Below are positions 45,217 through 61,705 of a DNA stretch of 64,000 bases, piece by piece. Each line of letters starts with the position of its first letter. The stretch's first letter is position 1. The notes beneath the pieces are model-generated. The model searched no databases. It was not told where the DNA came from and worked only from the letters and a program-made list of their open reading frames with translations. Position numbers and translations under genes: made by a program. This DNA comes from an uncultured Lachnospiraceae bacterium (GTDB taxonomy: Bacteria > Bacillota > Clostridia > Lachnospirales > Lachnospiraceae), in the NCBI GenBank assembly GCA_947567595.1, contig CANOMQ010000007.1, positions 1 through 64,000 of the forward strand, read 5' to 3'.

Positions 45217-45467
45217 TGTGAAGATAGAGGTTGCGTTTTTTAAAAGTACCTTTTCGGAGGTGTCAGGCACTGATGAGGAACGGGGAAAGGAAAGGACGCC
45301 GAAAGCGGGAGCTGCCCTGAAGGCTCCTGTCTTGGGCATACGGTTAAGAGCCGTATGACTGTCATCATCAGATGAAGCGCTATCGTGTTACCAAAGCCGT
45401 TGTATCTGGCGGAGGTATCTTTCAGTATGGAATGCCGTTCATCTAAGATGAGATGTTCGGCTTTTTT
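45217..45467 (+). promoter_or_regulatory. Lysine riboswitch (L box) upstream of dapA
   Basis: The conserved L-box elements follow in order: GAAGATAGAGG (45220-45230), AGTA (45244-45247), GGAAAGGACGCCGAAAG (about 45290-45307), TTGGGCATACGG (about 45333-45345), GACTGTCATC (45357-45366) and GAAGCGCTATCG (about 45374-45385). The expression platform follows: AAAGCCG (45393-45399) can pair with CGGCTTT, and an alternative terminator stem ends in the T run at 45461-45467. Binding of lysine should stop transcription of dapA-dapB, the first steps of lysine and diaminopimelate synthesis. Confidence 0.9.
45434..45467 (+). terminator. Riboswitch-controlled terminator
   Basis: GCCG (45434) with CGGC (45458-45461), and TCATC with GATGA inside, followed by six T. 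It ends 53 nt before the dapA ATG. Confidence 0.75.
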
Positions 45468-51908: not shown

Positions 51909-52295
51909 ATGTCAATAGCAGCTATTGCGGGTTTTTCTTCGCTTCGTGATTACAGGATATCGTCCATTCATGGCAATCCGTACAGTATGTATGCCATTCA
52001 GAAGATTGGCAGGAATATAGGAAACCAGCGCGGGCGGGCGCTTGTAATCGGTCAGGAAAAACCGGAAGAGGAGTTATATGTAAAGGATTACGGCGAGCTT
52101 TCCAAGACAAAGAACACGGCGACAGGTGATTTTGCCGAGCTGTTAAGTATGCAGGAGAGCAGGCTTTCCGATAATGGGCAGACACAGGAGGACGACGGTT
52201 ATGCGTCTTATTTAAAGGATACCATCGGTATGATGGGCTTTCAGAATGGTCTGCGCGAGCGGTTAAACGGCGTCGGGTTTGCATTGTTTGAATAG
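51909..52295 (+). CDS. Hypothetical protein, no recognised domain
   Basis: A 128-residue soluble protein. GGGAGGG precedes the ATG. N-terminal MSIAAIAGFSSLRDYRISSIHGNPYSMYAIQKIGRN is moderately hydrophobic but not a signal peptide; the middle is acidic; the end is KDTIGMMGFQNGLRERLNGVGFALFE. No catalytic motif seen. It could be co-transcribed with the DUF1836 gene. Function unknown. Confidence 0.6.
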   Translation: MSIAAIAGFSSLRDYRISSIHGNPYSMYAIQKIGRNIGNQRGRALVIGQEKPEEELYVKDYGELSKTKNTATGDFAELLSMQESRLSDNGQTQEDDGYASYLKDTIGMMGFQNGLRERLNGVGFALFE

Positions 52296-52341
52296 TTTGA
52301 ATTATTTTGTGAAAAAAAATAAAAAAAGTTATTGTCAGACT

Positions 52342-52370
52342 ATTTACAAAATTATGTAAATGTGATAATA
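52342..52370 (+). promoter_or_regulatory. Promoter of the candidate small RNA
   Basis: TTTACA (52342-52347), 17-bp spacer, TAATAT (52365-52370). No gene with a ribosome site follows before the terminator at 52473-52506. Confidence 0.55.
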
Positions 52371-52376
52371 TAATTC

Positions 52377-52506
52377 TTGCAAAGAGATTATGTTATCTTG
52401 ACTGGGGAGTCAAATAATTAATGATTTGTGTAGAAGGGAATGCAATCAATTGCATCTGCAATTCATTGCGTTGCAAAAAGAGCCATTGGGGAATGGCTCT
52501 TTTTGC
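52377..52506 (+). ncRNA. Candidate structured small RNA, about 130 nt
   Basis: Between its own promoter and a strong terminator lie three hairpins. (1) TTGACT (52398-52403), loop GGGG, AGTCAA (52408-52413). (2) GCAATCAATTGCA (52442-52454), 2-nt loop, TGCAATTCATTGC (52457-52469), 12 pairs with one C-C mismatch. (3) the terminator GCAAAAAGAGCCATT, loop GGGG, with its exact complement (52473-52506). No open frame of more than a few codons is present. The L,D-transpeptidase gene downstream has its own promoter beginning at 52507, so this is not its leader. I know no family that matches. Confidence 0.45.
52473..52506. terminator. Perfect 15-bp terminator with GGGG loop
   Basis: GCAAAAAGAGCCATT (52473-52487), loop GGGG, AATGGCTCTTTTTGC (52492-52506). 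Ends the candidate small RNA, and would also stop read-through from the gene ending at 52295. Confidence 0.9.
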
Positions 52507-52535
52507 TTGCCAAAAAATGTCAAATAGTGTATGAT
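52507..52535 (+). promoter_or_regulatory. Promoter of the L,D-transpeptidase gene
   Basis: TTGCCA (52507-52512), 17-bp spacer, TATGAT (52530-52535), start near 52542, 35 nt before the GTG at 52577. Confidence 0.7.
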
Positions 52536-52576: not shown

Positions 52577-53434
52577 GTGAAAAGAGTTTTTACACTGCTG
52601 CTTGCCCTGTGTATGTGTGTTGGCATTTTAGATGGGACTTGTGGGTTTCGGGTGAGCGCTAAGGAGGAGAAAAAGGATTACATGATTATGGTGAACCGCG
52701 CTGCGAACTGTGTGACGGTGTATGAGAAGACGCAGGACGGGGAAGCTGTTCCGGTCAGGGCGTTTATCTGCTCTTGCGGACGGGAAGGGCACGAGACGCC
52801 GCTTGGCACGTTTCGGACAAGCAATTATTATGACTGGCGGCTGATGGTGGACGGCTCATACGGGCATTACGCGGTGCGGTTTAACCGCGGTATCATGTTC
52901 CATTCCATTCCGTACTATACAAAGAACGCGGGCGACATGGAGTGGGAGCAGTACAATCTTTTGGGACAGGCGGCATCGCTTGGCTGTGTGCGCCTTGCCT
53001 GTGCGGACGCGAAGTGGATTTACGATAACTGCAAGGCGGGCACGGTGGTGACGGTGTATGATGACGCGCAAAATCCGGGACCGCTCGGACGTCCGGAGGA
53101 GATTAAGATTTCGGCGGAGAATGCATATAAAACATGGGACCCGACGGATACCGACGCGGACAATCCTTGGAATACGCTTCGTCCGGCGTTTCACTTGACC
53201 AATGGGAGTGGCGACGGCGTGATGTACCTTCCGGTGGGAGCGACTGCCCATGATATCTACAATGCGCTGGCAGTGCGTACACCGCAGGGGGAAGTACGTG
53301 AGCTGGGGACGTACCAGCTTAGAATGACGGGAATTTATGATTTGAACAGCGCAGGAAGCTATGTTGCCCATGTGTACGGCACGGATATGCTGGGCGTGAG
53401 GGTGGAACAGGATATGCTGATTTGTGTGCAGTAG
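52577..53434 (+). CDS. Secreted L,D-transpeptidase (YkuD family)
   Basis: A 285-residue exported enzyme that makes 3-3 cross-links in peptidoglycan or related amide bonds. Signal peptide at about 1-25 (RVFTLLLALCMCVGILDGTCGF), YkuD catalytic domain at about 35-165 with His109 in MFHSIPY and the nucleophile Cys137 in SLGCVRLACADAKW. The C-terminal part (about 195-285) is a separate beta-rich module with YLPVGATAHDIYNALAVRTPQG, perhaps for surface binding. It starts at GTG 52577 with GGAG 12 nt upstream; no ATG is suitable. Own promoter and own terminator. Confidence 0.88.
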   Translation: MKRVFTLLLALCMCVGILDGTCGFRVSAKEEKKDYMIMVNRAANCVTVYEKTQDGEAVPVRAFICSCGREGHETPLGTFRTSNYYDWRLMVDGSYGHYAVRFNRGIMFHSIPYYTKNAGDMEWEQYNLLGQAASLGCVRLACADAKWIYDNCKAGTVVTVYDDAQNPGPLGRPEEIKISAENAYKTWDPTDTDADNPWNTLRPAFHLTNGSGDGVMYLPVGATAHDIYNALAVRTPQGEVRELGTYQLRMTGIYDLNSAGSYVAHVYGTDMLGVRVEQDMLICVQ

Positions 53435-60373: not shown

Positions 60374-61705
60374 ATGGAAAAGGAAAATGTTTATTTAAAG
60401 CCTGTTACATTGAAAAATATTTTGAAATTTGCGGTTCCGACAATTGCGATGACGGTGTTTATGTCGTTTTACACAATGGTTGACGGACTGTTTGTGTCGA
60501 ATTTGATTGGCACGGACGCGCTGTCCGCGATTAATCTGACGGCGCCGGTTATCCAGCTTGTCACGGCGATTTCGACAATGCTTGCGACGGGCGGCAGTGC
60601 GGTGATTATGAAAAAGATGGGGGAGCAGAAGACAAACGAGGCGCGGGAGGACTTTGCGTTTCTGATTTTGGTGAATGTCGTGGTCGGGGTGGTGATGTGC
60701 GCGCTTGGGTATCTGACAATGCATTCGGTGTTTGCGGGTATGCATTTGTCGACGGACGTGGAGGGGTATTGTGTGGAGTACCTGAGCCGTTATCTCTTGT
60801 TTACGGTGCCGATTTTGCTGATGAATAATTTCACGCTTTACATGATTGCGAGCGAGAAGGCGACGCTTTCTTTGGTCTGTTCGGTGACGGGCGGGGTGCT
60901 GAATATGGTGTTGGATTATGTGCTGATTGCGGGCTTTGACATGGGGATTGGCGGCGCGGCGGTTGCGACGGGGCTTGGCTATTCGGTGACGGCGGTCGTG
61001 GGGCTGTTTGTGTTTTGCAGGAAAAAGAGCCTGCTGCATTTTCAAAAGCCTGTGGTTCGGGGGCGGGTGCTTGTCAATGCGGCGACAAATGGGTGTTCGG
61101 AGATGGCGACGGCGCTTGTCACGGGGATTATCACAATGATGTTTAACTGGACAATGCTGCGCTATGTGGGGGAGGACGGCGTTGCGGCGGTTACGATTAT
61201 CATGTATGTGCTGATGTTTGCAAGCTCCCTGTATACGGGGTATTCGTATGGGGTAGCGCCGATGATTAGTTTTTATTATGGGGAGCAGAACCGGGAGAAG
61301 TTAAGGAAGCTGGTTGCGGTCAGCCTGAAGGTGATTGCGGTGATTTCCGTTTTGACGGTTGCGGCGTCGTTTGCGCTGACAAGACCACTGGTGTCCGTTT
61401 TTGCAAGACCGGATAATCCGGTTTATGATTTGGCGGTGACGGGGAACCGGATTTGCACGTTTGCGCTGTTTTTTATCGGGTTCAATATTTTTGCGAGCGG
61501 GTTGTTTACGGCGTTGTCAAACGGGGTGGTTTCGGCGGTGCTTGCGTTTTCGCGGTCGTTTGTGTTTATGTTAGTTACAATGCTGGTGCTTCCGGTGTTT
61601 TTGGGCGTGAACGGGATTTGGCTTGCGACGCCTGCAGCGGAGCTGATGGCGCTTGCGCTGTCGGTGGGAATGTTTGTGCGGTACCGGAGGCGGTATGGGT
61701 ATTAG
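60374..61705 (+). CDS. MATE-family multidrug/cation antiporter
   Basis: A 443-residue membrane transporter with twelve predicted transmembrane helices in two bundles. Signature MATE segments: KFAVPTIAMTVFMSFYTMVDGLFVSNLIGTDALSAINLTAPV at the N-terminus and GVAAVTIIMYVLMFASSLYTGYSYGVAPMISFYYGEQN in the second half. Start ATG 60374 follows GGAGG by 8 nt; the upstream frame to 60266 overlaps the promoter and is not used. Regulation by the divergent MerR protein is strongly suggested by the 19-bp spacer promoter. Substrate unknown. Confidence 0.9.
   Translation: MEKENVYLKPVTLKNILKFAVPTIAMTVFMSFYTMVDGLFVSNLIGTDALSAINLTAPVIQLVTAISTMLATGGSAVIMKKMGEQKTNEAREDFAFLILVNVVVGVVMCALGYLTMHSVFAGMHLSTDVEGYCVEYLSRYLLFTVPILLMNNFTLYMIASEKATLSLVCSVTGGVLNMVLDYVLIAGFDMGIGGAAVATGLGYSVTAVVGLFVFCRKKSLLHFQKPVVRGRVLVNAATNGCSEMATALVTGIITMMFNWTMLRYVGEDGVAAVTIIMYVLMFASSLYTGYSYGVAPMISFYYGEQNREKLRKLVAVSLKVIAVISVLTVAASFALTRPLVSVFARPDNPVYDLAVTGNRICTFALFFIGFNIFASGLFTALSNGVVSAVLAFSRSFVFMLVTMLVLPVFLGVNGIWLATPAAELMALALSVGMFVRYRRRYGY

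Follow-up and report, generated by a model that had tools for sequence, protein, structure and literature searches.

RosA of Bacillus subtilis is a stand-alone small RNA (sRNA) of about 229 nt, with a sigma-A promoter and a terminator. It is reported to have three G-rich regions, in which GGGG motifs were mutated, and no C-rich region, to bind the C-rich RoxS and FsrA, and to have a narrow taxonomic range (PMC8216469). RsaI/RsaOG of Staphylococcus aureus, for which a length of 111 nt is given (PMC9266662), is described as having two G-rich regions through which it binds other sRNAs (PMC8216469). As for RNAs that act on the CsrA protein, two papers state that FliW is anti-correlated with the UvrY system, which drives antagonist RNAs (PMC4682653), and that no sequestering of CsrA has been reported in Gram-positives (PMC7430163).

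Here, we describe an element located in a stretch of 64,000 nucleotides (hereafter, the window; contig CANOMQ010000007.1 of GenBank assembly GCA_947567595.1) from an uncultured Lachnospiraceae bacterium. Very probably, this element encodes a small regulatory RNA that was not catalogued before and that a few gut bacteria possess; its exposed GGGG loops would most likely pair with C-rich RNAs. To our knowledge, no sRNA has been studied by experiment in this clade of Lachnospiraceae, and no paper on sRNAs of the clade was among those listed by our literature search, subscription journals lying mostly outside its coverage.

Like RosA, the window's RNA is predicted to be stand-alone, with its own promoter and terminator, three G-rich regions, no C-rich region and a narrow range. 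Unlike RosA, with its length of about 229 nt, it measures 98–146 nt across its seven copies and carries GGGG in hairpin loops; the likeness described here is one of make-up. Moreover, the RsaE/RoxS family, which would supply a RoxS-type partner, was found in 0/38 genomes of the genus. The window's RNA also resembles RsaI/RsaOG in being a small stand-alone RNA with G-rich regions. RsaI, however, has a C-rich pairing region, whereas a run of three or more C was found in none of our seven RNAs.

Layout of the Locus and Predicted RNA

The element spans positions 52334–52506 on the + strand, inside the 281 bp that separate a 128-aa ORF (end 52295) from the gene of the L,D-transpeptidase YkuD (start 52577). 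In order, it comprises a promoter, a first hairpin closed over GGGG, a linker with AAGGGAA and a terminator hairpin whose loop is GGGG as well. The features of the locus are as follows:

51909..52295, + strand: upstream 128-aa ORF, without a Pfam match
52334..52348, + strand: conserved 15-mer GTCAGACTATTTACA, which includes the -35 hexamer TTTACA (52343–52348); 14 of its 15 letters are the same in all seven copies
52366..52371, + strand: -10 hexamer TAATAT, after a spacer of 17; TAAAAT in G013, G020 and G023
52379..52506, + strand: predicted sRNA of about 128 nt, its start placed from the position of the -10 hexamer
52387..52413, + strand: Module A, ATTATGTTATC and then hairpin 1, near-invariant
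52398–52413, + strand: hairpin 1, TTGACT-GGGG-AGTCAA, with its GGGG loop at 52404–52407
52424..52440, + strand: Module B, linker ATTTGTGTAGAAGGGAA, with AAGGGAA in all seven copies and a preceding part that deviates in G006
52439..52472, + strand: middle hairpin, predicted for the window's genome, not conserved
52473..52506, + strand: terminator hairpin, with its GGGG loop at 52488–52491 and a covarying stem
52507..52535, + strand: separate promoter of the downstream gene, TTGCCA-17-TATGAT (motif ATRGTGTANNAT)
52577..53434, + strand: L,D-transpeptidase gene (YkuD, PF03734), directly 3' of the RNA in all seven copies

The promoter proposed in the first-pass annotation reads TTTACA-17-TAATAT, is of the sigma-70 type (9/12 consensus letters) and, with either TAATAT or TAAAAT as its -10 hexamer, was found in 7/7 copies. 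Promoter-like sites are frequent locally (7 in 2001 bp, versus a shuffled mean of 3.1) and, since they are so common here, the weight given to the RNA promoter comes from its conservation.

The predicted RNA, folded as 129 nt, reaches -49.8 kcal/mol against a shuffled mean of -27.9 (z -6.7; 0/200 shuffles as good), and a slightly longer stretch around it gives a z of -6.4. Three hairpins are indeed predicted for the RNA of the window's genome, as initially proposed, but the middle one is not conserved: G031 has a different one, and G006 and G010 have none. The observation that the GGGG loops are flanked by T and A holds, a U-A pair closing GGGG in both hairpin 1 and the terminator. The latter, also correctly recognized at first sight, has a stem of at least 15 bp followed by a T-run, 13 pairs of which make up the stem compared across the copies; a consensus scan did not list it. 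Among the 48 terminator-like hairpins of the window, a GGGG apex is present in two, the RNA's own and a weak one at 60991.

On the + strand, the unit contains no ORF of at least 40 aa, in agreement with the first reading, and a 77-aa ORF overlaps it on the minus strand. A small ORF was also considered and rejected, as no shorter frame is continuous through all seven copies: the frame starting with ATG-ATT-TGT runs for 37, 28 and 26 codons in the window's genome (G000), G031 and G010, and in G006 it is interrupted by a stop as early as codon 4. As a side observation, the upstream 128-aa ORF adjoins a DUF1836 gene and, by eye, also lies 5' of YkuD in many congeners.

The window's element has no Rfam match at the gathering score. 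When E-values up to 10 were allowed, ten matches appeared, none of them credible; the lowest E-values belong to STnc50 (0.06, minus strand), EF0408_EF0409 (0.18) and rli61 (0.35), all far under their gathering scores. The TwoAYGGAY motif is an Rfam family in which a purine-rich loop is repeated in two hairpins; it is absent from these ten matches and, unlike it, the window's RNA has GGGG as its loop. RsaOG is likewise an Rfam family. Elsewhere in the window, a lysine riboswitch aptamer was recognized at 45217–45390 on the + strand (115 bits).

Distribution and Conservation among Relatives

Using BLASTN on 60 genomes, the window's own included, we recovered, besides the window, near-full copies in G031, G006 and G010 and partial ones in G013, G023 and G020, the remaining matches (many, with E up to 1) being all short. 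When the three partial loci are read in the correct orientation, the linker and the terminator are present there also. A covariance model built on the promoter and hairpin 1 identified the element in 7 of the 38 genomes of the genus (own genome included), as a single copy in each. Across 397 genomes of the family, this model gave one match, in the window's own genome, under stricter filters that weak copies could escape. An exact-pattern scan of the GTDB collection retained 6 contigs, all from Lachnospiraceae and corresponding to the same six congeners, among which are Lachnospiraceae bacterium COE1 and UBA7110. The element was therefore not found in other genera, within the 397 family genomes and the GTDB exact-pattern scan, and the viral contigs gave 0 matches.

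The promoter and hairpin 1 are identical to those of the window at 97, 96 and 96 of 97 positions in G031, G006 and G010, a comparison that amounts to four species, while the fourfold sites of the neighbouring YkuD gene are identical at 72/116, 47/108 and 49/101 positions, respectively (44–62%). The identity of the RNA is thus far above that of the neighbouring fourfold sites, from which we conclude that the RNA is under strong selection. In G013, G023 and G020, 71, 73 and 69 of 98 columns are identical to the window, and the YkuD fourfold sites have fallen to chance level (19/73, 17/68 and 15/73; 21–26%). Even against these three genomes, ATTATGTWATC and hairpin 1 are near-invariant, in their letters no less than in their structure. 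Such constancy could be expected from an RNA that binds a protein other than CsrA through hairpin 1 and its flanks, a reading that we consider quite unlikely and for which we have no candidate protein.

In hairpin 1, the only variation is a C to T change in three of the seven copies, which retains a G-U pair, and on the + strand only; its sequence is too conserved for any covariation to be demonstrable. In the terminator stem, on the other hand, both partners of 5 of the 13 pairs have changed in a compensatory manner (6 distinct rows), and 97.4% of the stem's cells are paired, two end cells of 78 being unpaired. Its covariation score of 0.43 is reached by 0/500 shuffles, slid alignments giving 0.10–0.21; of the five covariation measures, one, the number of further pair types, does not exceed its value in the shuffles (7 versus 8.7). 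An RNAalifold prediction for the promoter and hairpin 1 was set aside, since it paired promoter bases too and reached only -6.6 kcal/mol.

The G-U pairs, found at three terminator positions and at one hairpin-1 position, allow pairing on the + strand only, and transcription of the + strand is supported for this reason. A minus-strand RNA with CCCC loops is disfavoured, because the changes that give G-U on the + strand would be A-C on the minus strand. Taken individually, the RNAs of G013, G023 and G020 have fold z-scores of -1.8, -2.9 and -2.6, less significant than that of the window's RNA. In these three genomes, an insert separates hairpin 1 from the linker, whose AAGGGAA is retained despite the altered spacing. 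The first-pass annotation had named the lack of structural conservation in relatives as a way to refute a new stand-alone small RNA; the structure proved to be conserved in seven genomes, and this conservation, together with the compensatory changes of the terminator, supports the proposal.

A regulon defined by GTCAGACTATTTACA was considered and rejected: the genome holds 59+42 sites with up to three mismatches, versus 96+91 for the reversed control. One site, with a single mismatch, falls within a 101-codon ORF. In G013 and G023 (loci of the L005–L007 set), AATAGTC-A-GACTATT forms an inverted repeat of 15 bp that overlaps the -35 hexamer; the repeat is imperfect in the window (52330–52344) and in G020. 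We take this repeat to be loosely CodY-box-like, and a CodY-family gene is present in the window's genome.

Relation to the YkuD Gene

The YkuD gene was found in 32 of the 38 genomes of the genus, and its locus was obtained for 30 of them, i.e., 7 RNA-bearing and 23 RNA-less. As first noted, the downstream gene has its own promoter. Indeed, ATRGTGTANNAT is located upstream of YkuD in 15/23 RNA-less loci (of the other eight, four had no anchor and were scanned whole for it). It is also found in 4/7 RNA-bearing loci, the other three showing TTTACA-17-TACAAT. By eye, the gap of 11 RNA-less loci contains little beyond a terminator and the YkuD promoter. The RNA thus seems to have come or gone in one piece, ahead of a YkuD promoter that would work without it. 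Since YkuD keeps its own promoter in most RNA-less loci, we favour a separate sRNA gene over a leader. A single clade of RNA-bearing genomes is not supported by a YkuD tree of 26 of the 30 loci (G016, G028, G001 and G018 were missed by the motif filter and left out); this tree has long branches and needs two changes.

The RNA lies 5' of YkuD in 7/7 copies, although the upstream genes of G013 and G020 are DUF4340 and ABC-auxiliary genes. This linkage may be plain inheritance. It would also suit a cis element of YkuD, an attenuator close to the promoter, with read-through contributing to the expression of YkuD, as the RNA is on the same strand and directly 5' of the gene even where the preceding gene differs. 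We judge such an attenuator clearly improbable. The YkuD promoter sits between the terminator and the gene, and is the one kept in most RNA-less loci; no antiterminator fold was found, the best contiguous upstream pairing with the 5' arm of the terminator being 3–4 bases in each of the seven copies; and the terminator stem changes whereas hairpin 1 hardly varies.

In the window, no terminator was located in the stretch from the 128-aa ORF to the RNA promoter, and the RNA could therefore arise from the upstream message too. This observation fits a reading without any RNA function, in which the terminator would be an alternative one for the upstream gene and would neighbour a conserved DNA site. 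However, a hairpin-and-T terminator also precedes the RNA promoter in G013, G020 and G023 (by eye), and these genomes nonetheless keep the promoter and hairpin 1. The G-U changes of the + strand fit RNA pairing, and AAGGGAA is retained as well, so that we hold the absence of an RNA function for very unlikely. A real, new, clade-restricted sRNA gene is, in our view, highly probable; judging by these comparisons, it would be an autonomous gene, with its own promoter and its own terminator, for an RNA of about 100–145 nt.

GGA Sites and CsrA

RNAs of the CsrB type have many GGA sites. The first-pass annotation had pointed to GGA in each loop of the window's RNA, and to CsrA sequestration as a possible function. 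As letters, GGA does occur near the hairpin loops and in the linker, which recalls CsrB, CsrC and RsmZ. As part of the loops, it does not hold equally well: the A closes both stems, and the terminator apex reads GGGGCT in 3/7 copies. GGA is present in hairpin 1 and in the linker of 7/7 copies, and in the terminator loop of 4/7.

The presence of csrA, which had been left to be checked, was established in the window's genome, and a search detected the gene in 35 of the 38 genomes of the genus. In G031, where the search missed it, both ends of csrA are readable around a run of N; with the six genomes found by search, all seven RNA-bearing genomes thus have the gene. By search, fliW is also present in 35/38 genomes, including the seven RNA-bearing ones. 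In G016, G028 and G019, five, seven and eight csrA-like matches were seen, mostly of a second, lower-scoring type, and csrA seems to be multiplied in some congeners.

The flagellin leader of the window's genome (gene assigned by the Pfam flagellin family) contains AAGGGAC and a hairpin with the 7-nt loop GAGGGAG. Given these similar GGGA sites, the AAGGGAA linker bears some likeness to what may be a local CsrA site. An RNA whose GGAs, in hairpin 1 and in AAGGGAA, bind a CsrA dimer could then either titrate the protein off the flagellin message or be itself acted upon by CsrA. The presence of csrA in every RNA-bearing genome, the two GGA sites kept in all copies and the GGGA sites of the flagellin leader, one of them in a hairpin loop, all speak for such a CsrA-binding RNA. 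Several points weigh against it. The terminator loop retains GGGG in 7/7 copies but GGA in only 4/7; in hairpin 1, the A of GGGGA belongs to the stem. Unlike CsrB, CsrC and RsmZ, the RNA has two conserved GGA sites only, and its hosts possess FliW. Moreover, csrA does not follow the RNA (35/38 versus 7/38 genomes). The reported anti-correlation of FliW with the UvrY system (PMC4682653) and the absence of reported CsrA sequestering in Gram-positives (PMC7430163) point the same way. We thus regard CsrA binding as rather unlikely, and CsrA sequestration does not stand as the best reading. The more specific proposal, in which hairpin 1 and AAGGGAA would imitate the flagellin leader's GGGA sites and so titrate CsrA in a Gram-positive gut bacterium that has FliW, appears very doubtful; if it were true, an RNA would take part in controlling motility in these species.

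Exposed G-Runs and Possible Partners

All seven RNAs contain, in order, GGGG, GGG and GGGG, with one extra GGG in G023. In the fold models of the seven copies, the GGGG loops are on average 85–100% unpaired, the first G of the terminator run being 42% unpaired in G013, G020 and G023. For AAGGGAA, the mean unpaired fraction is 73–100% in four of the seven models and 36–54% in those of G013, G020 and G023. At the terminator apex, GGGG is kept in every copy while the letters of the stem change around it, which suggests that the loop holds the functional letters. We infer that the G-runs are the active sites.

Most likely, the RNA would act in trans and recognize other RNAs by base pairing. Its two rigid hairpins would present GGGG as open loops, the AAGGGAA linker constituting a third G-run, and these G-runs would catch C-rich stretches, either in regulatory RNAs, as a sponge does, or in messages. 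We favour pairing with C-rich partners because the make-up of the RNA matches that of RosA and because GGGG is kept while the stems change. An autonomous sRNA acting in trans by G-rich pairing with C-rich RNAs is, from sequence and analogy, a tentative reading, to which we give a little less than an even chance. The element would be a candidate G-rich sponge outside Bacilli or, if it bound CsrA, a candidate for the first RNA antagonist of CsrA in a host with FliW; both readings would extend a scheme so far reported from B. subtilis and S. aureus.

The complement of the linker shows no excess in the genome (30+33 sites versus 28+34 for the reversed control). Two sites match it with two mismatches: one lies opposite a 317-codon ORF, and the second is in sense orientation within a 129-codon ORF, about 110 nt after its start. 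For hairpin 1, the exact 12-mer complement, GACTCCCCAGTC, occurs once elsewhere in G000, opposite a reading frame. With up to two mismatches, GACTCCCCAGTC has 129 sites, the element's own included (50+79), versus 94 for the control (50+44), and the excess is confined to the reverse listing (79 versus 44). The best six near-matches outside the element each lie opposite the longest local frame. No partner thus emerged from the linker and hairpin-1 complements or from the RsaE/RoxS family, which speaks against the pairing reading, as do the more closed linker and the less significant folds of G013, G020 and G023.

The insert that G013, G020 and G023 (loci L005, L006 and L007) carry ahead of the linker contains a conserved GTGCGCAAC; within it, the 6-mer TGCGCA is self-complementary and may form a kissing loop.
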